Shown: positions 23,541-35,459 of the stretch, piece after piece
Position numbering within the stretch: the first letter of the stretch is position 1
How the letters are laid out: the number at the start of each line of letters is the position of its first letter
Origin: Entophlyctis helioformis
Lineage: Eukaryota > Chytridiomycota > Chytridiomycetes > Chytridiales > Chytriomycetaceae
Direction: 5' to 3'
Assembly: GCA_025526915.1 (NCBI GenBank)
Contig: JAHLKH010000138.1
Location: forward strand, 1 to 64,000
DNA: 64,000 nucleotides
The notes under the pieces: generated by a model
Databases searched by the model: none
What the model saw: the letters and a program-made list of their open reading frames with translations, nothing else
Told to the model about the DNA's origin: nothing
Position numbers and translations under genes: made by a program

Positions 23541-23599
23541 TTTGGTTTGCGACGACAGGTGCAGGAGCGAGTTGGCGAGATCGCCTTAAACGGACTGTC

Positions 23600-23605
23600 C
23601 GGTTT
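23600..23605. repeat. Target-site duplication, left copy (CGGTTT)
   Basis: Six bases directly outside the left terminal inverted repeat, identical to those directly outside the right one. Confidence 0.75.
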
Positions 23606-23629
23606 GGGCCCGATATTCATACAATTACC
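23606..23629 (+). repeat. Left terminal inverted repeat
   Basis: 24 bp beginning GGGCCCGATATTCATAC. It matches the reverse complement of 32545-32568 at 20 of 24 positions, with mismatches at positions 8, 10, 11 and 18. A 6-bp inverted repeat (GAATTT/AAATTC, 23632-23650) lies just inside. Confidence 0.85.
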
Positions 23630-23785
23630 AAGAATTTTGGAATTAAATTCGACCCGAGAGGCGACGAATGCAAGCCCACATATCACGTGATTCAAGGCTC
23701 GCGTCAGCAACGAGCATGCGACGACGAGCGGGCGATGCACATCCAACGAGGGTCTCACCTTCTATTGAAGTGACCCGTTAGGTCG

Positions 23786-23803
23786 ATCGGGAGGTCCCCC
23801 GAT
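23786..23803. other. Hairpin just downstream of the Fanzor stop codon; candidate guide-RNA end
   Basis: ATCGGG (23786-23791) and CCCGAT (23798-23803) are perfectly complementary around a 6-nt loop, about 50 bp 3' of the Fanzor stop on its strand and inside the left end of the element. Fanzor and TnpB guide RNAs (omega RNAs) are usually encoded at this place, overlapping the 3' end of the gene and the element terminus. Assignment is positional only; a stem this short also arises by chance. Confidence 0.3.
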
Positions 23804-23849
23804 TCCAAAAGTTGGTAGTGGTGGTGCAAGTCAGAGTGCCAAAGGCTTG

Positions 23850-26800
23850 TCATGCGAGACAACACATGGCTGGCAACCAGGCTTGGGCACGACTTGCACG
23901 CCGCTGGATGGCAGTATGCATTGCCTTGATGTCTGCAAGGTGCTCTGGTGTGGCTGGATCGTCACTGGCTGGCGTGTGCGTCAAGTAGAGCGGCCGGTGT
24001 CCAAAGAGCAGATGCCACAGTGCGACCATCCCGATGTTGGTGGCTCCAAGCACGTCGCGGTGGTAGACGGTCGTGCAGTCTGTGCACTCGTAGCGTCGCA
24101 GGTTGGTGCGGTTCTTGTCTGGGATCCGCTGCTTGCACTGCGGGCACATCTGGCTGGTCAGGTTCTCATTGCAGCAGTAGATCTGTGTGTGTGTGTGTGC
24201 ATGATCGTGTGTCAGTTGGTGCACAGATGGATGGATGGATGGACAGCATGGCATCAGACGCACATAGGCATATCCAGACGACCGCAGATGCCTGATGAGA
24301 AACTTCTCAAACACAGCATGCCTGCCACCTTGGCCTGTAAAGTCGATGCCAAATGCCCAGACAACGGGAATGTTGTCCTCTGTCGACTTTGATCGGTCGA
24401 CAGGGAGGCCTTGAGACGCAGCAGATGCGCGCTTGCCAGTGGTCGATCCTGCCAGCTTCATGATGCCCTCAAGAGCCTGTCCGCGATCTGACATGCGCTT
24501 GCAGCGCATGGCAAACCGCTTGGCCTTGACCTTCTGTGGAATGCCATGCCATGCCATGCCATCCAGTGTGATCAGCAGGCGATCAAGCAGCATGGCGGCC
24601 GTGGCAATGGGCATCCAGAACCAGAGAAAACGTACCCATGCATTCAGGAATGGCGAGCAGTACGCACGGCAGCGCAGATCCCAAAAGGCTCTCTCGCCTG
24701 CTGTGGCGTTTGGATCAGCATGCTTTGCTGTCTTGAATGCAATGGCTGCCTGGATGTCGGCTGCCTTGGCATATTGATCAGCAAACCTGGCACAAGAGAC
24801 AGGCACTGTGAGTTGATCTGGTCAAGAGTGCGCATGGCAGAGTCATTGCATACATACCAGTCCTGAAAGATGCGCTCAGCATGTGCCATGCCAGAGGAGA
24901 GCACGTAGTTGGACTCGAGCTTATATGAAAAGTCTCTGAGATCAACCAAGATGCTGGACGCGCCATACATGTACCGCTGGCCCCAATCAATGCCGACAAT
25001 CCGCACAAACCGGTAGCCCTTGTTGGTGAACAGCTTGTTGGCTTTGGGGATGTTGGGCAGTCGCTGCGAGGCGTAAAAGTTGCACTTGCCCTGTCATGCC
25101 ATGGCATGAGTGAGGGATGTGCAATGCATGTGCACCAATGCGCGAGTTTAGCATGCAAGTGGCTTACAGGATTGGGTGCTTTTGGCTTGGTGGCTGTGGA
25201 TGGCATGTCAGTCGGTGCTGGTGCCAAGTGTGCATCATAATGGCACAGCAACTCACATGTGCCATCCATGTGATCATGCCCATCATTGGCCTCATCATCA
25301 TCAGAATCAAAATCATCATCATCATCAACCCACAGCTGCTGGCCTGAAGACACCAGATTGGAGCATGCAGAGCAAGGCGGCAGTCAGAATCAATGTGTGC
25401 ACCATCGCATCCAAGCACGCCACATACAGCAAGGTGACTCTGGACGGTCTGTGCGGCCATTGAGAGCCAGTTGAAAGATGCTGTATCCATCCGTCCTGAC
25501 GCTGCCTGTCAGGATTGCCTTGGTCCGTTTTGCTGGACGTGCCGCATCAATCGCAGCCTTGATATGCTCCTCGCGCTCCTTGCCAACCAGACCCTGCTTG
25601 TCAGCCTCTTGCGTCGCCTTGGCTGTGGCCTTGGCAACCGCGTCCATCTCATCTTTGGCTTGTGCAGGTGTCTGGAAGCGACCTTTCTCAGGGCGGAGGC
25701 CGGGAAGCAGGACGTCGAGAACACAGAGCTCTTGACTTGCGCTGAATGCCGGCTCAATATCCTTGTTGAATGACGCGAGGCCCAAGGTGGCTTTTTGGTA
25801 GTCTTGGATAAAAGTGCAGTGTCAGCATCAAATCATACACATGGCATAAACAAGTGCGACCTACTGAGTGCATCCAGAAGCTCCAGTCGCAATGTCTGCA
25901 AAGCATCACTCTGCTTGCCATTCTTGCGCTCATCCGTGGTCCCCATTACCGCCCAAAAGAGGGTGGCCTCGGTAATGAGGATGAACGGGTCGCGGCTCGC
26001 CGCCTCAGGGCACAACTTGATTGTTGTGCCAACAGCAAGCTTGCGCAGCTCGTAAAAGATCCTGATCTCTGAGAGTGACGCATTGCTCAAGATTGGCACA
26101 AGCACATGCAATGCTTGCGGGATTGTATCAAGACCGCCGTTGTCTGTGGCTGGCAGCGTGCTGGGTGTCGCGGCCGCGGTGGTGGCCTTGTCCTTCCTGC
26201 ACCGTTGCCTCTTGGGTTTGGCACTGTTGGTGGCTGATGAAGAGATGGACCGGTCGTGCTTGAGACCCGAGGCAGGAGGGGCAGCGTCTTGAGCAGCGTC
26301 TAGTGAGGCGTCCTCAGTGGCCGGTGGTGTGGTTGATGCTGGCCCTTTGCGCCTTTGTTTCTTGCGTGTCGGTGGGCTTGGTGTGGCAACCTCGGCAGCA
26401 GTGCGTTTGGCATCCTTGGTGGCGGCATGCTTGGCATCCTCGGCGGCCTTCTTAATGATCCCGATCCACCTGTCAACATCCTTGGCAGACGCACCCTGCA
26501 CCAGGCTGTGAGCTGCATCAACCAACAGCTTGGACTGGTTGGTCATAAAATGGGTGGCCAGCATGCAGCCGACGTCGCGTGCAAGGTTGGTGTAGATGTT
26601 GTGCCTTGCTTTTGCACAAAGGCTGCTATCAAGCCTGTAGGGCAGGACAGCCTCCAAAGTGTCCGTATGCACAGCATCTGCCGTCGGTGCACTCTTCTGC
26701 ATCAAGGCAGACAGATCTGCATTCGCCTGCTCCACAGTTGACTTGAACTTATTGGCCTTGGTTGTCGCTGTCTGCTGCACACGTGCTGTCTGTGAGATTG

Positions 26801-28432
26801 ACTTCCGTGTGCCTGCTTTCCACGTCGCTGCTTGCCGTGTGGTTTTCTGTGCTGCGGATGCCTGCTGTGTCGCGTCCACCTGCCCCTCCTTCCGTCTCCA
26901 TGTCCGATGTATGATCAGCTGCATCACGGTGACGATCCAGCAGTGGACAGGGTACTTGATCGCATGCGGCTGGACCATCTTATCATCCGCCATGATGTAT
27001 CCAATGTGATATAGCAGCATGTCCAAAGCACCCTCGCCACCAGACGTGCTGCTGGTGAGCGCCGTGAGCAGCTCATTTGCAGTTGGGACTGCTGGCGGCT
27101 GGGCGGCTGGCAATGATGCGCCGGCGCTGCTGGCTGCTGTTGCTGCTGTTGCTGTCACAGTCTGCGATGCATTTGCAAAGGTGCAGATCTCAAGCACCGT
27201 GTCGCGCTCGAGAGGCACCAAACTGCCATAGCGAGGTATCTCCGTGTTGCTGCTATGTGGTCCTGTGCCATACATCAGCCATGCATTGATGCGCTTTTGG
27301 AGGATGCACCTGCCCGTTGTCTGCATTGTGCCCTTGCCCTTGCCGAGGTCGTCTGGGTTGATGTAGTAGTATGTTTTCACACTGCCACTAGTGACTTGCA
27401 TCACGCAGTAGTCAAGTGGCAGTGGCGCATCTGGGCTGAGCTTGACAAGAACCTCGACTATTGCGCCGATCAACGCGAGGACAGCACACAAGAGGCCGGC
27501 TGTGTAATCGTACACCGTCAGGAGGGCATCCTTTCTGACCGAAATGGCCGTCTGCTTGGCCAGCGGTGTCTTGGTATGGGTCCCAAAATACTTTGTATAC
27601 TCTGGCTTGTTTGACAGCATCTCCTGCTCATTTCACGAGTGCACCAGTCAGCCTCACAACACCAAGCATCCAGAGCAACATGGCAATCAAACCCCATACC
27701 GCCAGATCCACAATCATAACACGGCTGTTATGCTGTGCCTCATCCTCATCCTCATCCTCATCCCTGCCCTTGCTCTTGCTCTTGCTCTTGCCCTTGCCTT
27801 TGCTCTTGTCCTCATCCTTGTACTTTGGTGCTTTACGATGATGCTGCACGTTTTTCCGACTGTCTGGTGTTTTGACTTTGAGGACCCCATTGACTGTCTG
27901 GACTGGCCCTGATGTCACGCAGCAATTGCCCGCAACATCCAGATGTGTCGCCCATCTATCATGATATTCGTGTCTACCAGCAGAATCCATGTCAGCAAGC
28001 ACGATCAGGGCTCGCAGCATGCCATCTGCCACTTACGTGCTTGTCGTTGTTGGAGATGGGGCCTTCCGGTGGCGTCGCCCTGACTTCTTCTTGTTTTTCT
28101 TGATGGTGTTCTCGGTCGCAGCCTTCTCAGCTTGCTCGGCATTCTCCTTTGCATGTGCAGCCTCTGTCTCCTCAGAGAATTGGAATGGCGCCTGCCGTGT
28201 TGGATGCAGCATCAGGCATCCCTTCCTTGTGCACGCAACACAGTCACAATCACCAACAGTGCCCTGTAACCTACCGTCGTATTAGTGTCATCAAGTACAC
28301 CAACGAGAAGTTTCTTACGGTTTGCTTGTTCAGGGCGATCGTTGTCAGATGACTTGGGCAGCGGTGGAGGAGGACCAGCCTGCGGAGTAGAATGATCAGC
28401 AATCGTGCCAAATCAGTACAGGCACACACCAT
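23850..28432 (-). CDS. Fanzor protein (TnpB-like candidate RNA-guided endonuclease)
   Basis: Confident exons: 28263-28037, 27973-27721, 27623-25865, 25802-25428, 25343-25257, 25193-25168, 25090-24858, 24786-24264 and 24182-23850 (about 1,270 residues). A possible first exon at 28432-28321 adds MVCACTDLARLL and about 26 more residues. The C-terminus holds a split RuvC domain: FVRIVGIDWGQRYMYGAS (first Asp), PVVWAFGIDFTGQGG, then NENLTSQMCPQC, whose Glu sits in the ExxTS position seen in Fanzors. A second Cys pair (CTDC) completes the zinc ribbon, and YHRDVLGATNIG carries the last Asp. Upstream lie a Cys cluster (GDCDCVACTRKGC), acidic and Lys-rich linkers and a 586-residue block that I do not recognise. 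At over 1,100 residues it is long for a Fanzor. Codon use is less GC-biased than in its neighbours. Confidence 0.85.
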
Positions 28433-30852
28433 CAGTGGAAGATGAGATGCACGGCGGCTTGCTCAATGACTTTCTGCAGCAGGGCAATGGCCATTTGACG
28501 CTGATTGACGAGTGTGATTGAATTGCCCTTGCTGATACGTCGATTCTTGAGGCCATTCAACTCATTCAGCAGGTTTGTGGCCTCATCATGGATAACTGCA
28601 AACGTGTCTGCCGGCGCCACTCTTGTGCTGATCCGTCCGCGGTACTCGGTCTTCTTCTTGCCTGTATCTGCAATAGCACATTCAACAAAAACGGCACTGT
28701 GAGTGGATTGCATCAACCATTTCAATGCAAGCAGAATATACTTGGAGTGGCTGTATGCCGGAAGGGGGCATTTTGTGGATGCACGATCTCATCCAGCTGC
28801 GTCTTCATTCTTGGAGCAACAGTCTGTCCAGGAGCAATGGATCGAGTCAGTCACATTCAAGATCAACAACTGTGTGTGGTGCAAGAGCAACGGCATGCAT
28901 CCAAGCCATGCAGCAACTTACAAAAGCATGCCAAATCATCTGATCCGCCTTACTGAGCACCATGTAATCATCTGGCTCGATGGACTGCTCGTGCACAATC
29001 TGCAGCAACTGTGCACTAGCCGCCCTGCAGATGGCTGCGAGGATGTCACGGCTAGTGACTCCATCATACTTGCTCGCAAGGAGATCAACTGTTTGCTCTA
29101 TGATGGCGTCCAATGCCACGTGGCAGCCATTGACCTCCTTGAATGCCACATCCAGCCGCCTGCTGGCAACAATCCCATTGGCAAGCTGTTTGACGCGATC
29201 GCTCGTCAAGTGGACAGGTGGGACACCAGTCTTGGCTTGCTGCTGCAGCTGCTGCGTGGTATGGATCAAACAGCAACCAGGCGATGAGCACCTGCACAAT
29301 AACGAGATCGCAGCATCAGAAACAGGAAAGCCATGTCAGTTTTTGCAGAAACACCACAGATGGCATGCATGCATACTTGGCTCCAGCCGAGGCTGTCACG
29401 TTGACATACATGTGGTTGGCATTGCCTTGTTGAGGCCCAGATCTGTGCAAGGCATGCAATCGTGTCAATGCCAATATGTCCATAAAATCCTTCAAGAATA
29501 GACTTGCCTCGCGACAATCGGGGCTGCAATTGTGCCAACTGGCGCTTTGGGCTCGATTCGGTCGACAAAGACCGAGAATGCATTCTTGAACATTGGTATG
29601 AGGCTCTTGTCATGACTCTTGGCCAAGTCCTTGATGTATGCATCCCTGAGGTCATACATGAACACCTTGGCCTCGTCAGGAGTCTCGAGTTTTCTATAGA
29701 GCTCAGCCTCCTTGCCATCCAACTTGGCCGCCTTGCGATCAAACCACACGTTAATGAACTTGGCAGCGGCCGTGATCCCTGAAGGCAATACAAGCAGAAT
29801 TGCGCATGAAGACAACGAATGGCATGTGAGTCATGACAGACAACAAAACAGGCGCAGCAACTCACCATGGCGATTGCGGCCAAAAAAGTCTGTATGAGAA
29901 AACACTGCAACACCCTGACATGCACCGCGAAAATCCCGCACGCCCAATGCAGACGCGGTTGAGGCGATACCGCCATGGTTGTATGAGCGAGGCTGGTTAA
30001 ACCGCCCATGCTGCAAGTGGGTCACAACGACACCACATTGACCAGCACAATGAGCAACCAGATCAGAGTCATTGGAGACAACAACGACTGGCTTGTCACT
30101 GTCACAAAATGGAGACTGTGAGCCATCAGTCACGGCAGAATGATCCAAGGCAATGTTACCTTGGCTCGCGAACATGGCGGGCAATGCATACATCAGCCTC
30201 ATAATCACACCAGCATACTGTGCATCCCTTCTTTTTGCCAACAAGCTTGTTGAGGGCCTCAACGATGTGCTGTTTGTCCGTCTGCGTCAATGTGAAAAAT
30301 CGGCCGAGAGCATGGGTCTCCTTTCTGAGTGGCCGACAGCAGAAGATGGTTAGTAAGGCAGCCACACAGCAGAGAGTAGCAAACCTACTTGGTCATCAAC
30401 CCAATCTGCTTGTATTCTTGACGGCGGAACGCATACCGCAGGACCTTGACCGCCGCATGCAGCATCTTGAGTGCGCGGTGTCGGTGCTCGATCTTTATAC
30501 CTGCGTCTCCGCGGCGACTGTCGACGTGGAATTTGATGGTGTGGCCATCACCGACCGACGCCATGAACAGCTCGATGGCCGGCTCGATAATGGCCTTCCA
30601 GGCATCCTTGGAGTCGGGCAAGCTGAACGATGCTGAGGCAATGAGCTGCGAGTAGAATACGCTTAGCATGTCAATGTGTAACATGCTGCTGACAAAGTCG
30701 TCTGTTGTTGCTGTTGCTGTTGTTGCTGGTCGCTGTTGCTGCAGTGTGCTGTGGAGCACGTGCTGCATGACCTGGCTGAGTGCTGTGCCAGCAAGGTAGA
30801 GCCAGACGGCACAGCCTAGCTTGAGCATTCTCAAGTAGCCGCGGACCGTCAT
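28432..30852 (-). CDS. XPG/FEN1/EXO1-family (PIN-like) nuclease, possibly frame-broken
   Basis: Exons 30852-30389, 30324-30160, 30098-29866 and 29778 to about 29510; then segments ending near 29370, 29291-28922, and through to 28432. The I-region signature is clear: CTVCWCDYEADVCIARHV (the E-A-D pair of EXO1/XPG proteins), followed 12 residues later by VVVVSNDSDLVAHC (the DSD motif). Together these are the metal-binding acids of structure-specific nucleases. FKNAFSVFVDRIEPKAPVG and, near the end, LLNELNGLKNRRISKGN are conserved-looking but unassigned. The canonical N-region aspartates are not evident. Between about 29530 and 29490 the frame switches from ...VGTIAAP to ...PDCREASLFLKDFM with no convincing splice pair, so this copy may carry a 1-nt frameshift. 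The stop TGA overlaps the ATG of the next frame. Confidence 0.65.
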
Positions 30853-30880
30853 GTTGCGTGGTGCTGGTGCGTGGGATGGG

Positions 30881-30882
<2 letters not shown>

Positions 30883-30917
<35 letters not shown>
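30883..30917. repeat. GT microsatellite
   Basis: About 17 GT units upstream of the XPG-like gene start, within the mobile element, interrupted only at its end by GAGT. Confidence 0.9.
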
Positions 30918-30919
<2 letters not shown>

Positions 30920-31004
30920 TGTGTGTATCTGTTTGTTTGCGGGCAAACATGGTGCGTTCCAAAGTGGCGCGCTTTGATCAGATCTGATGGGCGGAGTTGA
31001 ACTT

Positions 31005-31010
31005 TTTATT
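31005..31010 (-). terminator. Polyadenylation signal AATAAA
   Basis: A perfect AATAAA on the minus strand at the end of an open frame, suggesting that a minus-strand gene lying between about 32400 and 31020 ends here, before the XPG-like gene begins. Confidence 0.4.
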
Positions 31011-32400
31011 GCATGAAAACAGAGAGTGAGTCGACAGAGAGCGAGCATCCAGGCACTCGCCGTCCCCTGCCCAACAGCCATCAAGGAAGCAGCGAGCACA
31101 GCCAACAGCCAGGCATTCAAGATGCGGTTCTGTGTTGCTGGCACAGTCATTGATGAGATGCCACTCAGTGCGCAGCTTGATATGCACCGTGCAGCATCAC
31201 TCTGCGTGTCATGAGCTGCATTGCAGCGAGTCTCTCCAAGTGTCGTCTTCTCAGTCAATGTCCCATTGCATCCAACAATCGTCCTGATATGCATCTGCAT
31301 TGTGACCCAGTGCGATGCAGTTGGTGTTGCCTGACTGGCCAGCTGGTCCATGGACAGGTTGGCCGTTGGCGCACTGTCTGCATCGCCCCTCTGCTCTGGA
31401 TTGTCCTTGTCAACAAACACAGTGCATGCAAGACTGGGATCGTCAGGATTGTCGCCATCATCGTCGTTGTGGTTGTTGAATGAATGGAGGATGCATGGTC
31501 TGTCTGGCCACTCCAGTTGCTGGTCAGTGGGTCGCATCCAAGATGCCATCGCACCAAGTGCAATGTGGCCAGACACGCCTGCCAGCACTCGCATCCTCCT
31601 CACCAATCTCGCCTGGATCAGTGTCGTTGAGTGTGCTGCTCATCGAGTGCGCTGCCACTGTCGAGTTTGGCATCCAAGTCGGCATGCCAATCCAGCTGTC
31701 CAGCAAGCAGTTCCTGCAGCCAACTCCCAAGGATCGATCCATTGAGCACGTCTCAGTGGCTGCTCATCTGCTGCTGCTGCATCCCATGTCGCAGTGAGAA
31801 TGCACCAGGCAGCTCAGTCCTGCGATGCCAACGCTCTCGCTGTCCTCTTGAACAACAACCAGATCGCCCTGTTCACAGCCGTCTTGCCGACGTCCCTTGC
31901 TGTTTGGACCCATCAGACAAGCACACAGTCAGTGCCAAGCCCACACAGACACGGCCGTCAGACTGCTGTGCCGTCGTCGTCAACGGGCAATGGAGCATGC
32001 CTGGACAGACAGCGAGTCAACGCACCTGCTTGCCTGTCTGCAGCCTGCCTTCTGTCCGCCCGCCTTGTTGGGCACGCCTCTCAGACGGCCACGACCACGC
32101 TGCTCTGCTGGATGGCCTGCTGCATGCCACCTTGAGCAGTGAGCCTCGCCATCTCCCCTGAAGGACTCGACCAAGGAGAGCTGGACCATATCCGTGCAGA
32201 TGGGTGAAAGGGTGGCGCGCTGTCTGCTAGGCCGTGTTGAAGGTGTGGTGGAAGTGGTGGTGCTGTCGCCTGCGTCGTTGTCGTTGGGCTCGTTGTTGCT
32301 TGTGTGCAGTTGGGCGGCAAGTGCAGCAGCGTCTGGATCTGGCATGGCGCGTTGCTGCTGTGCTCGCATCGCGCAGTGTCTGCACTTCGCAAGGGCTCTC
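31011..32400 (-). CDS. Unresolved third gene of the mobile element
   Basis: The minus strand has several overlapping protein-like segments in different frames, as in an intron-split gene, but no single exon chain could be established. Protein-like blocks are NEPNDNDAGDSTTTST (around 32290), MARLTAQGGMQQAIQQSSVV (around 32110), DLVVVQEDSESVGIAGL (around 31850), SILGSWLQELLAGQLDWHAD (around 31710) and CTVFVDKDNPEQRGDADSAP (around 31400). The last block is followed by TENLSM-like and Thr/Cys-rich sequence and a hydrophobic segment (NAWLLAVLAASLMAVG, around 31100). A polyadenylation signal follows. No family is recognised and no DDE triad is apparent. It could be the missing transposase, an N-terminal part of the XPG-like protein, or decayed sequence. 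Confidence 0.3.
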
Positions 32401-32402
32401 TA

Positions 32403-32544
32403 GATCGACCAATCACAGCGATCCCGCCAAGATCGGCCAATCACAGCGATTCCACCAAGATCGGCCAATCACAGCGATTCCACCAGGAGTTGACCAATCA
32501 CAGCGATTCCACCAGGATCGACCAATCAGGAATAGTCCACCAGG
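32403..32544. repeat. Five 28/29-bp subterminal direct repeats with CCAAT cores
   Basis: Units at 32403-32430, 32431-32458, 32459-32486, 32487-32515 and 32516-32544. Each starts near GATCGGCCAATCACAGCGAT and ends TCCACCA(A/G); units 2 and 3 differ by one base and the fifth is the most degraded. The array stops exactly where the right terminal inverted repeat starts, which suggests a subterminal binding-site array for the transposition machinery. Each unit also has a CCAAT box, so an effect on RAD21 transcription is possible. Confidence 0.9.
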
Positions 32545-32568
32545 GGTAATGGTATGAGAACCGGGCCC
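32545..32568 (-). repeat. Right terminal inverted repeat
   Basis: Read on the minus strand it begins GGGCCCGGTTCTCATACC and matches the left terminus at 20 of 24 positions. CGGTTT follows directly outside. Confidence 0.85.
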
Positions 32569-32574
32569 CGGTTT
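32569..32574. repeat. Target-site duplication, right copy (CGGTTT)
   Basis: Identical to the six bases flanking the left terminus. Confidence 0.75.
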
Positions 32575-32717
32575 GAACAAGCCAGCCAGCCAGCACAAGC
32601 CAGCCGTGACTTGGACAGACACAGCAGCAGATCCCACAACAACAAGAAGCATAGCAACAAGAACAGCAGCAACAGAAGCAACAGAAGCAACAGAAGCAAC
32701 AGAAGCAGCACAAGCAG

Positions 32718-35459
32718 ATGTTCTACTCCGAGACGATTCTGTCCAAGAAAGGCCCGCTGGCCAAGGTGTGGCTGGCGGCGCACTGGGAGCGCAAGCTGTC
32801 CAAGTCGCAGTTCCTGCAGACCAACATCCAGTCGTCCGTCTGTGAGTGTGCGAGCTATCGTGTCGTGCCGTGCCGTGTAGTGTACTGTGGGCAGAGCAGA
32901 GCAGAGCAAGAGCAAGAGCCGAGTGGCTGGCTGCCTGCCTGTCTGTCTGCCTGGTGGTCGCTTCGTTGCCAGATGCCCGTCGCCTGGTCGCTCAGCAACA
33001 CGGCCACCCAGCGTGTCCGAACCTGCCAGACCGACTGACCGACTGACCGACTGACTGACCGACTGAACCCTTCGACCACAACCTACAGCGGCCATCCTGA
33101 CGGCCGGCGCAGAGCCCATGGCGCTGCGGCTGTCTGGCCAGCTGCTGCTCGGCGTCGTGCGCATCTTCTCCCGCAAGACCCGCTACCTCCTCGAAGACTG
33201 CAACGAGGCCCTGATGAAGATCAAGCTGGTGCGTTGCTGCACGCCTGCCATTCCAGCGCTTCTGGCTGCTGATCTGCCTTGCTGTGACTGCAGGCGTTCC
33301 GCCCAGGCATGGTCGACCTGGCCGAGGAGCAGGCAGTCGCAACCGTCACAAACATCACCATGCCCGAGAGCATGACCGAGTTTGACATTCTGCTGCCAGA
33401 GCCTCGCATCGATCTAAAGTAGGGGGCCGCCAAAGGCCGACCGCGGGATGCGTGTCTGCGTCGACTGACACTGAAACGGCAACGACAGTGCACTGCTGAA
33501 CATTGCTCCCGCAAACACCGCCCTCACCATTTCGCGGCTTCAGGACATCACTCTGGCAGAAACCACCTTCTTCTCAGCCTCGCAGCGTGAAGATCTGCTC
33601 GCAGAGCCCATGGCAGACGTGTCTGCTGCTGGATTCGACCAGGACGAGCCCATGCTCGATCTGCAGTTTGGAGACCCGCCGTCGCTTTTGGAAGTCGAAG
33701 TCGGCCGTGATGCGCCCGCCCCGCTCCCCTTCTCGCCTGGCGGCCAAGATGCAGAGATTGGGCTTGCTGCTGAAAAGACGCGCGATGGAGCAGACCCCCT
33801 CAACGTGCCGCTGGGCCAAGACTTTAGTATCATGGCCCCCAGCACGGTGGACGCTGGAGGTGATCTGTCTCTTGCCATGCCGGATGCAGGACTCGCGCAG
33901 GGGGACGAGTATCAAGACCCGCTCGCATATGCTGCCGATGACAACTACGACTTTGGATTCGGCGAGCCACTCGATCTGTGAGTTGGCATTCATGTCATGC
34001 AACGGTGCTGACGTGCACTGACCCCCCATTCTTTGGGCACATTAACCAACAGCGGCATACCCAACGACGATCTTCAGCAGCAGCAGCAGCAGGACAACGA
34101 GCGGGATCCTGCGCTGGACGCCAACAACGCCGATGACGACGTTGTGTTCAAGGTTCCGCAGCGGCCTGCATTGAAGCGTGCTGGTGATGCCGAAGAGGTG
34201 CCTCGCAAGCGTGCGGCTACACAGCAGCGCAAGCGTAAACTCGTTGTCGACGACGAGATCGATGTGGCAGATCAGATCTTCAGACAGCAGCTTCAAGACA
34301 CGTCGGATATCTGCCAGCCAGTACGTTTGTTTGTATGCACTCTTGCACACCTTGCATATCGAGATTGTCGCCAGCTGAGCATTGTCGATGCAAACAGGAG
34401 CGCTATGTGACCGGCACGCGCACAGACAGTCTTTACCAGGAGTTGATGGGCATGAACAGTCGCTCGTACACGTCCCGCGCTGGCGTTGACGATTTCCCCG
34501 ACGCCCTCCAGGGTCTCTTTTCTGGAACGGATGACCTGCACAGGTTCGAGTTTGCCGTCAGAGGACCTGCTGCTTCTGTCGCGCCATCCGTCCTTGGCGA
34601 TGTTGGTAAGCCGGCCGTGGTCTATCTCCCATGTCGAATGACTCCAGAGTGAGTCCCCAACTGACAATGCCGCGTTCATTGTAAACAGACCACTCGGTCA
34701 TTGTTCCGCAAGACGAGATTGCACCACAGTACAATCATATGGACGGCTATGACAACTACGATCCGTTCCTTGGCGGTGACGACTATGCACCTGTGCCCGA
34801 AGCACTCGACTTGGTTGTGCCCGGAGATGGAGATGATCTTGCTGCCATCCAAGGACACGCAGACGGACCCACGACGCCAAAGAAGGGTGAGGCTGGCGGC
34901 GAGGCTAATGGCGATGCAGAAAACCAAGGTCTCGGCAAGCCCCAGACACTTCTCGACAACCAGTCCTTTGGCAACGACGTGTCCTTGGCCGAAACGGACA
35001 TGGCAAGCTTTGCCGAGGTGTCTGTTGATCTCGGTGTTGCCCGTGCTGGACACGACACATCTGCACTGGGCAGGCCGCAGCCATCACTGTACGAGTTTGA
35101 CGATCCCGAAACAGCGCCAGTCGAGGGCGAAGCAGGCATCAGTCGCCACACGTCCCAGACCATCAAGCTCTTGCAGGACAAGTTTGAGAATCAGCTGGAC
35201 GCGCCACAGGCTCACTACAGCGACTTTGTCAGAGGAGTGAGTGCACATTGCGTCTGCCACGATGGACTGGTCGTTGTTTGTACGGGCCAGCGACTCATTA
35301 TGCTCGTCTTGACAGGCACCCAAGTCTGCACGTGCGCGTTTCTTCTTTGAGTTACTTGTTCTCAAGACCAAGAACATGATCGATGTCGAGCAGCCCGAGC
35401 CTTGCGGCGATATTGCTATTGTCCCACAGCTTGGTTTGTTTGCAACGGCGACAGCATGA
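32718..35459 (+). CDS. RAD21: Cohesin alpha-kleisin Rad21/Scc1
   Basis: Kleisin subunit that closes the Smc1-Smc3 cohesin ring and is cut by separase at anaphase. Exons 32718-32841, 33089-33228, 33294-33418, 33489-33977, 34053-34320, 34398-34605, 34689-35236 and 35316-35459 give 681 residues in one frame. The N-terminal Smc3-binding domain reads [39 protein letters not shown] and [14 protein letters not shown]. The middle is acidic and disordered, with a glutamine run and a [11 protein letters not shown] basic patch. The C-terminal Smc1-binding winged helix reads [20 protein letters not shown]. The ATG begins 144 bp downstream of the TSD flanking the mobile element, so its upstream promoter has been split from whatever lay beyond. 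Confidence 0.95.

Follow-up and report, generated by a model that had tools for sequence, protein, structure and literature searches.

A high-copy transposon of the chytrid Entophlyctis helioformis with 8-bp target duplications and a predicted fusion of XPG/FEN1-type and Fanzor-type nucleases

Fanzor elements of fungi and algae are described as DNA transposons, with terminal inverted repeats (TIRs) or of other types, which carry a TnpB-like protein and often lack a transposase (Bao and Jurka, 2013, PMC3627910). One of them, SPu-1 of Spizellomyces punctatus, is about 2.1 kb long, with a single open reading frame (ORF) of 633 aa and putative TA duplications, while the MuDR-like ROr-4, PBl-3, and MCi-4 are TIR elements of early-diverging fungi with a Fanzor and, as described there, without a transposase (PMC3627910). 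The stretch of DNA analyzed here (the window: positions 1 to 64,000 of contig JAHLKH010000138.1 of Entophlyctis helioformis, assembly GCA_025526915.1, 64,000 nt) contains at 23607-32567 (8961 bp) one copy of a TIR DNA transposon with 8-bp target duplications, and the element belongs to a high-copy family of this chytrid. It resembles the Fanzor elements of fungi and algae (PMC3627910) in being a DNA transposon and in carrying the C-terminal Fanzor motif. Unlike SPu-1, it is 9 kb long and has 19 exons, a predicted product of 1,874 aa, an N-terminal 5'-nuclease domain and 8-bp duplications. It also differs from the MuDR-like elements, which have 9-bp duplications and MuDR-like termini (PMC3627910); the MULE domain was not found in the E. 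helioformis genome. The 8-bp duplications are common to this family and to KDZ (Zisupton/Dileera) elements (PMC12730594), but none of the KDZ transposase pieces present in the genome was seen to be linked to window-type termini. The 8-bp duplication expected of hAT elements is likewise found, in perfect form in 10 of 22 copies. As to the XPG/FEN1/EXO1 5'-nucleases, the predicted protein is similar to them in fold and in the order of acidic residues, but differs in its Pfam scores, which stay below the cut-off, in the predicted fusion to a Fanzor-type part, and in being transposon-borne.

The initial annotation of this locus had placed inverted termini at 23606-23629 and 32545-32568 (20/24 matches), a position and a count that we confirmed, and had regarded 23606 and 32568 as the exact ends. 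The base at these two positions, however, varies between copies (G, T, C, or A at the junctions of other copies) and thus belongs to the target duplication, so that the element extends from 23607 to 32567 and its TIRs in the window copy are 23 bp long, matching at 19 of 23 positions. A direct repeat does flank the element, as had been proposed, yet its length is 8 bp (CCGGTTTG); the 6 bp first given are ruled out by the junctions of other copies. Nor does the duplication fall outside all nameable superfamilies, since 8 bp is usual for hAT and Zisupton/Dileera (PMC12730594). Other copies, sought in the host genome, end at the same places, and the proposal of a bounded transposon with a Fanzor-type gene is supported.

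Among the 22 copies for which both flanks are available, the duplication is perfect (8/8) in 10, matches at 7/8 in 2 and at 6/8 in 2, is 8-9 bp long and shifted by 2 bp in 2, and is replaced by an 11-bp repeat in 1; in a control with mispaired flanks, 8/8 was seen in 1 of 462 cases. Chance was further assessed with 3,000,000 random pairs of positions 5-11 kb apart within the window: none combined an 8/8 direct repeat with an inverted match of at least 19/23, and the direct repeat alone occurred in 89 pairs, the best inverted match among which was 12. The left terminus begins with GGCCCG in nearly all copies (C37 differs, and the sequence of C58 stops short of the terminus). The right terminus is more variable: it starts with T or A in C5:119k, C219, C43, and C193, two bases are changed in C7, and in C348 it is damaged. 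Three of these copies with an altered first base (C5:119k, C219, and C193) are also ones with displaced or longer duplications.

A genome search for the terminus pattern, allowing no more than two mismatches, gave 251 matches, with none for the reversed-pattern control; if each element has two ends, this corresponds to roughly 125 elements. A query with the whole element returned 56 matching pieces, with several copies almost complete at 93-96% (28 of 531 candidates scored). A search with an XPG-part exon gave 148 matches, of which 147 lack stops, and a 259-aa Fanzor query matched 349 pieces (147 of 625 candidates scored). Among the 100 of the 251 termini that were listed, 19 pairs of ends face each other at less than 16 kb, and all 19 enclose a match to the XPG part: 18 to the XPG exon (C2 weakly, 3.1e-5) and the last, C67:108802-116163, by a separate comparison. 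A single-copy or stray insertion is therefore ruled out by the many genome copies with the same termini. When the gene model was followed codon by codon, with insertions not scored, the window copy and that on C102 (L011) had no stop or broken codon over the whole gene, and many other copies were damaged or incomplete relative to the window model. In the protein database, where about 8,000 candidates within length limits were scored per search, the XPG profile retrieved 6 proteins and the RuvC profile 4, all ten from E. helioformis, and the Fanzor part used as a query had no match among 7,999 candidates scored. Viral contigs yielded 29 and 19 stretches with the pattern, none of them a relative of the element.

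Some elements with the same termini are 14-16 kb long (C12:37207-51106, C69:71859-85752, C2:172903-186939, and C297:448-16378). The copy at C5:189422-205272 is interrupted by about 6.5 kb of non-matching DNA between query positions 2998 and 2991, probably a nested insertion.

One large gene was recognized in the element, on the minus strand, with 19 exons and no internal stop (Table 1). Its splice sites were picked by hand from the reading frame and conservation; the introns are GT-AG, with one GC-AG. Sequence and modeling predict a product in which a 5'-nuclease of the XPG/FEN1/EXO1 type is fused to an RNA-guided nuclease of the Fanzor type. In the C-terminal part, the TNB zinc-ribbon domain (PF07282) scores 37.1 bits, above its cut-off of 26.3, while the NCBIfam TnpB match (3.6e-6) stays under its own. 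The Fanzor/TnpB motif D-X(125,275)-[TS][TS]XX-[C4]-X(5,50)-RD is present as D1581, 191 residues, T1773-S1774, Cys 1777/1780/1797/1800, 5 residues, and RD. The alternative RuvC-II glutamate of Fanzors is found as well, as E1770, six residues before the zinc-finger C1777; this position is E in 7 of 8 spliced copies and K in L038.

The acidic residues of the N-terminal part are D61, D111, E197, D199, D220, D222, and D280. Five of them (D61, D111, E197, D199, and D280) are invariant in 6/6 rows of alignment A2, D220 and D222 are so in 4/4 rows of alignment A1, and their order fits the XPG/FEN1/EXO1 active site. The predicted structure of a relative, P0001, has an XPG/FEN1/EXO1-type fold, and both P0001 and the protein P0002 match XPG_I_2 best among Pfam families, at 17.2 and 15.5 bits, below the cut-off of 24.2. 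PF00867 was matched at 4 places of the genome, none coinciding with the XPG matches of the element. Purifying selection acts on the XPG-like part and on exon 12, with a pN/pS of 0.26 in exons 1-4 and of 0.38 in exon 12. The AlphaFold2 model of exon 12 was uninformative, with a predicted local distance difference test score (pLDDT) of 40.6 and a predicted TM-score of 0.30.

On the other side of the gene, an alignment of 24 copies shows that conservation starts abruptly shortly 3' of the stop codon and continues to the terminus. This non-coding block is a likely candidate for the omegaRNA, and a structured nature is suggested by one hairpin whose loops are of varied length and sequence, two of the versions being long and having different paired stems; all five hairpin variants tried fold better than most shuffled sequences. 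Fanzor1 RNAs extend about 15 nt past the target duplication (PMC10711439), and by analogy the window copy would take its guide from the minus strand of the host DNA that lies left of 23599. RNA-guided cutting would involve a target-adjacent motif; promoter-side flanks (n = 23) contain no strict motif, and omegaRNA-side flanks (n = 34) show a weak preference for A at duplication positions 2-4. Two pairs of copies, L016/L038 and L035/L070, have nearly identical host flanks on the omegaRNA side, as if they had been inserted in, or guided to, the same repeated sequence.

The two ends of the gene differ sharply in their divergence. When the window copy was compared with ten diverged copies, synonymous divergence (dS) was 1.07-1.39 in the XPG and middle parts (9 copies measurable), 0.69-1.18 in exon 12, 0.41-0.94 in the exons after it, and 0.16-0.25 in the RuvC part, and non-exonic distance was 0.35-0.54 in the XPG and middle parts vs. 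0.03-0.07 in the RuvC part. This drop from a dS above 1 to about 0.2, introns included, argues that the RuvC end has been exchanged among subfamilies, the omegaRNA end apparently behaving as an exchangeable cassette. FastTree trees of the two gene parts, compared by eye, differ in depth in line with the distances. Purifying selection is ruled out as the cause of the similarity, since the similarity is greater in introns than in exons and the synonymous sites of this end have also diverged far less than those in other parts of the gene. Near-identical copies show the opposite order, with a mean distance of 0.017-0.027 over 25841-30389 and of 0.057-0.079 over 23607-25802, and the diverged copy C168 has its far promoter-side region in common with the window too (94.6% over 800 bp). 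In the RuvC part (23850-25167 in the window, and the copies), non-exonic DNA is 93-97% alike between subfamilies vs. 85-89% for exons.

Table 1. Positions of the transposon parts and of the predicted gene in the 64,000-nt window.
Feature	Position	Strand	Basis
Target site duplication, left copy, CCGGTTTG	23599..23606	.	Junctions of copies, flank comparison, chance test
Left terminal inverted repeat, omegaRNA side of gene	23607..23629	+	Copy junctions, genome pattern search
Conserved non-coding block from stop codon side to terminus, candidate omegaRNA scaffold	23607..23805	-	24-copy alignment; hairpin variants; weak covariation
Predicted gene: XPG/FEN1-type nuclease, middle, and Fanzor-type nuclease; 19 exons	23850..30852	-	One open frame; splice sites (GT/AG) of introns 8-11 conserved in most diverged copies
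Exons 13-19, Fanzor C-terminal part; RuvC motifs D1581, E1770, D1807 and C4 zinc ribbon	23850..25802	-	Pfam/NCBIfam, motif
Exon 12, aa 790-1383	25841..27623	-	No family recognized; AlphaFold2 model uninformative
Exons 5-11, middle part, aa 379-789	27700..29442	-	No family recognized in ORFs scanned
Exons 1-4, XPG/FEN1/EXO1-type nuclease domain, aa 1-378	29508..30852	-	Alignments, fold of relative P0001, subthreshold XPG_I_2
28-bp subterminal tandem repeat, about 4.5 copies, promoter-side end	32402..32528	.	Units with CCAATCA (CCAAT-box-like)
Right terminal inverted repeat, promoter side of gene	32545..32567	-	Copy junctions, genome pattern search
Target site duplication, right copy, CCGGTTTG	32568..32575	.	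Junctions of copies, flank comparison, chance test

The number of units of the 28-bp repeat seems to differ in other copies. A RAD21/REC8 cohesin gene has its first exon at 32718-32840 (Rad21_Rec8_N, 5.2e-16), starting about 140 bp right of the element, which has thus been inserted in the upstream region of that gene.

Taken together, the data are best read, at a probability of about 0.6, as a TIR family with a predicted nuclease fusion, which is moved by cut-and-paste and in which Fanzor-guided cutting would favor both copying and exchange of the RuvC end. Insertion would be a staggered (8 bp) cut-and-paste reaction of a DDE-type transposase, acting in trans or too diverged to be recognized. 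The omegaRNA would be the 3' end of the transcript, running through the terminus and the target duplication into host DNA, and the Fanzor part would use it to cut the matching empty site, be it the donor site after excision or a sister or homologous site. The XPG part would then resect or trim the broken ends; repair would thereby restore the element by copying, and the copy number would rise with transposition. These breaks, made at the omegaRNA end, would also account for the exchange of the RuvC exons, introns, omegaRNA, and left terminus, with the rest of the gene saturated.

A number of observations tell against this reading or parts of it. No recognizable duplication was found in 5 of the 22 two-ended copies. 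RuvC-I is DWG, and not DPG, in 8/8 spliced copies, whereas Fanzors have DPG "near exclusively" at this site (PMC10711439), for which reason we call the protein Fanzor-type rather than a typical Fanzor. The RuvC profile searched against the PDB retrieved no Fanzor chains, only chance-level matches (best E 0.46); with a single RuvC-part sequence the best match was a phosphatase (E 0.013), and two RNA-guided nucleases appeared at E 0.24 and 0.41 only. Likewise, the XPG profile retrieved no XPG chains from the PDB (chance-level matches, best E 0.27), and the structure model of P0001 has a mean pLDDT of 54. In the consensus structure of the candidate omegaRNA, one of 37 pairs varies on both sides, i.e., there is almost no covariation, and the folding z-score of a 202-nt stretch is -1.41. 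Distances near saturation depend on poor alignments, and in L017, a near-identical copy with 248 codons in the XPG and middle parts, dN/dS is 1.08. Further points of this kind, bearing on the fusion, are given below.

A somewhat unlikely alternative is that this is an ordinary Fanzor element, non-autonomous and mobilized by a conventional transposase of the KDZ, hAT, or MULE type acting in trans, in which the XPG part is a captured passenger and the RuvC end has been homogenized by ectopic recombination among the abundant copies, without Fanzor cutting. Precedents exist, since transposase-less Fanzor elements are known, both MuDR-like in Mucoromycota (PMC3627910) and in the SfAV element (PMC10711439), and the 8-bp duplications suit hAT and Zisupton/Dileera (PMC12730594), KDZ elements having 7- or 8-bp ones (PMC12730594). 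No transposase was recognized in the minus-strand ORFs of the element and the public proteins scanned. A genome-wide search with five Pfam families returned nothing for the MULE domain (PF10551; its control rang in 4/14) or for IS1595 and DDE_Tnp_1, whose controls rang, and nothing for the hAT dimerization domain, for which, however, the control was silent. KDZ transposase did occur, as 4 pieces at 3 loci (on C334, C271, and C396), and a KDZ enzyme acting in trans is possible; yet 3 of the 4 pieces contain stops, and none of the loci (0/3) was shown to lie inside an element with these termini. That on C334 (6404-7253) is about 8 kb before the right end at C334:15197, which faces away, so that it lies outside an element, and the window ORFs scanned contain no KDZ match. 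The purifying selection on the XPG part, whose exon is free of stops in all but one of its matches, also speaks against a mere passenger.

Rather unlikely, too, is an arrangement of two neighboring genes, in which the gene for the XPG-type nuclease would end near 28.4 kb and an independent Fanzor gene (1,084 aa) would begin at the ATG that forms codon 2 of exon 12. This ATG, which is what a separate Fanzor start would look like, is present in the window and in 8 of the 9 diverged copies that have sequence at this place, and an open frame runs from it; public gene models split the gene into separate short hypothetical proteins; an in-frame TGA follows exon 8 if the intron stays unspliced; and exons 9-11, which join the halves, show the weakest constraint among the first twelve exons (pN/pS 0.65). 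On the other hand, a single frame is open through exons 1-19, and in a comparison of the window with nine diverged copies the GT and AG of introns 8-11, by which the halves are joined, are kept at the same aligned places in 8-10 of 10 sequences (the exceptions being L031 and L029), although the surrounding DNA is only about half identical. For introns 8-10 this holds in 8 or 9 of 10, and the acceptor immediately before the exon-12 ATG is kept in 10/10, a conservation for which an upstream untranslated exon could still account. The ATG and the splice-site counts thus pull both ways on the fusion. A pairing of an XPG-type nuclease with a Fanzor was not found in the open-licence PMC literature, subscription papers being outside the scope of this search.

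More doubtful is the version in which a guided nuclease and a structure-specific 5'-nuclease make up the sole enzyme, so that the element, with no DDE transposase of its own, would spread by guided cutting, resection, and copy-back, and the cutting would also be what causes lineages to exchange the nuclease-omegaRNA cassette. That the fusion protein is the entire mobility machinery, with no DDE transposase involved, we regard as improbable: the fusion gene is the only large gene recognized in the window element, the XPG part accompanies every facing end pair listed and none of the transposase families searched for turned up in elements, but 8-bp duplications with inverted termini, a hallmark of DDE enzymes, point to such an enzyme, XPG and RuvC-type guided nucleases are not known to join DNA ends, and the transposase searches cover five Pfam families and the minus-strand ORFs, with no usable model for exon 12 and the middle part.

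This Fanzor-bearing transposon combines 8-bp duplications, a very high copy number, a predicted XPG/FEN1 fusion, and a seemingly exchangeable omegaRNA end. The family bears on the question of what a Fanzor does for its transposon: about 125 elements with matching ends reside in one host genome, and as many copies have target duplications, their guides may be deduced. That the predicted protein contains a second nuclease suggests a cut-and-resect function, and the polarized exchange at the omegaRNA end is a footprint of the kind expected from Fanzor-induced breaks. Should the fusion be real, it would also be a naturally occurring design that couples a programmable nuclease to an enzyme of 5' resection.

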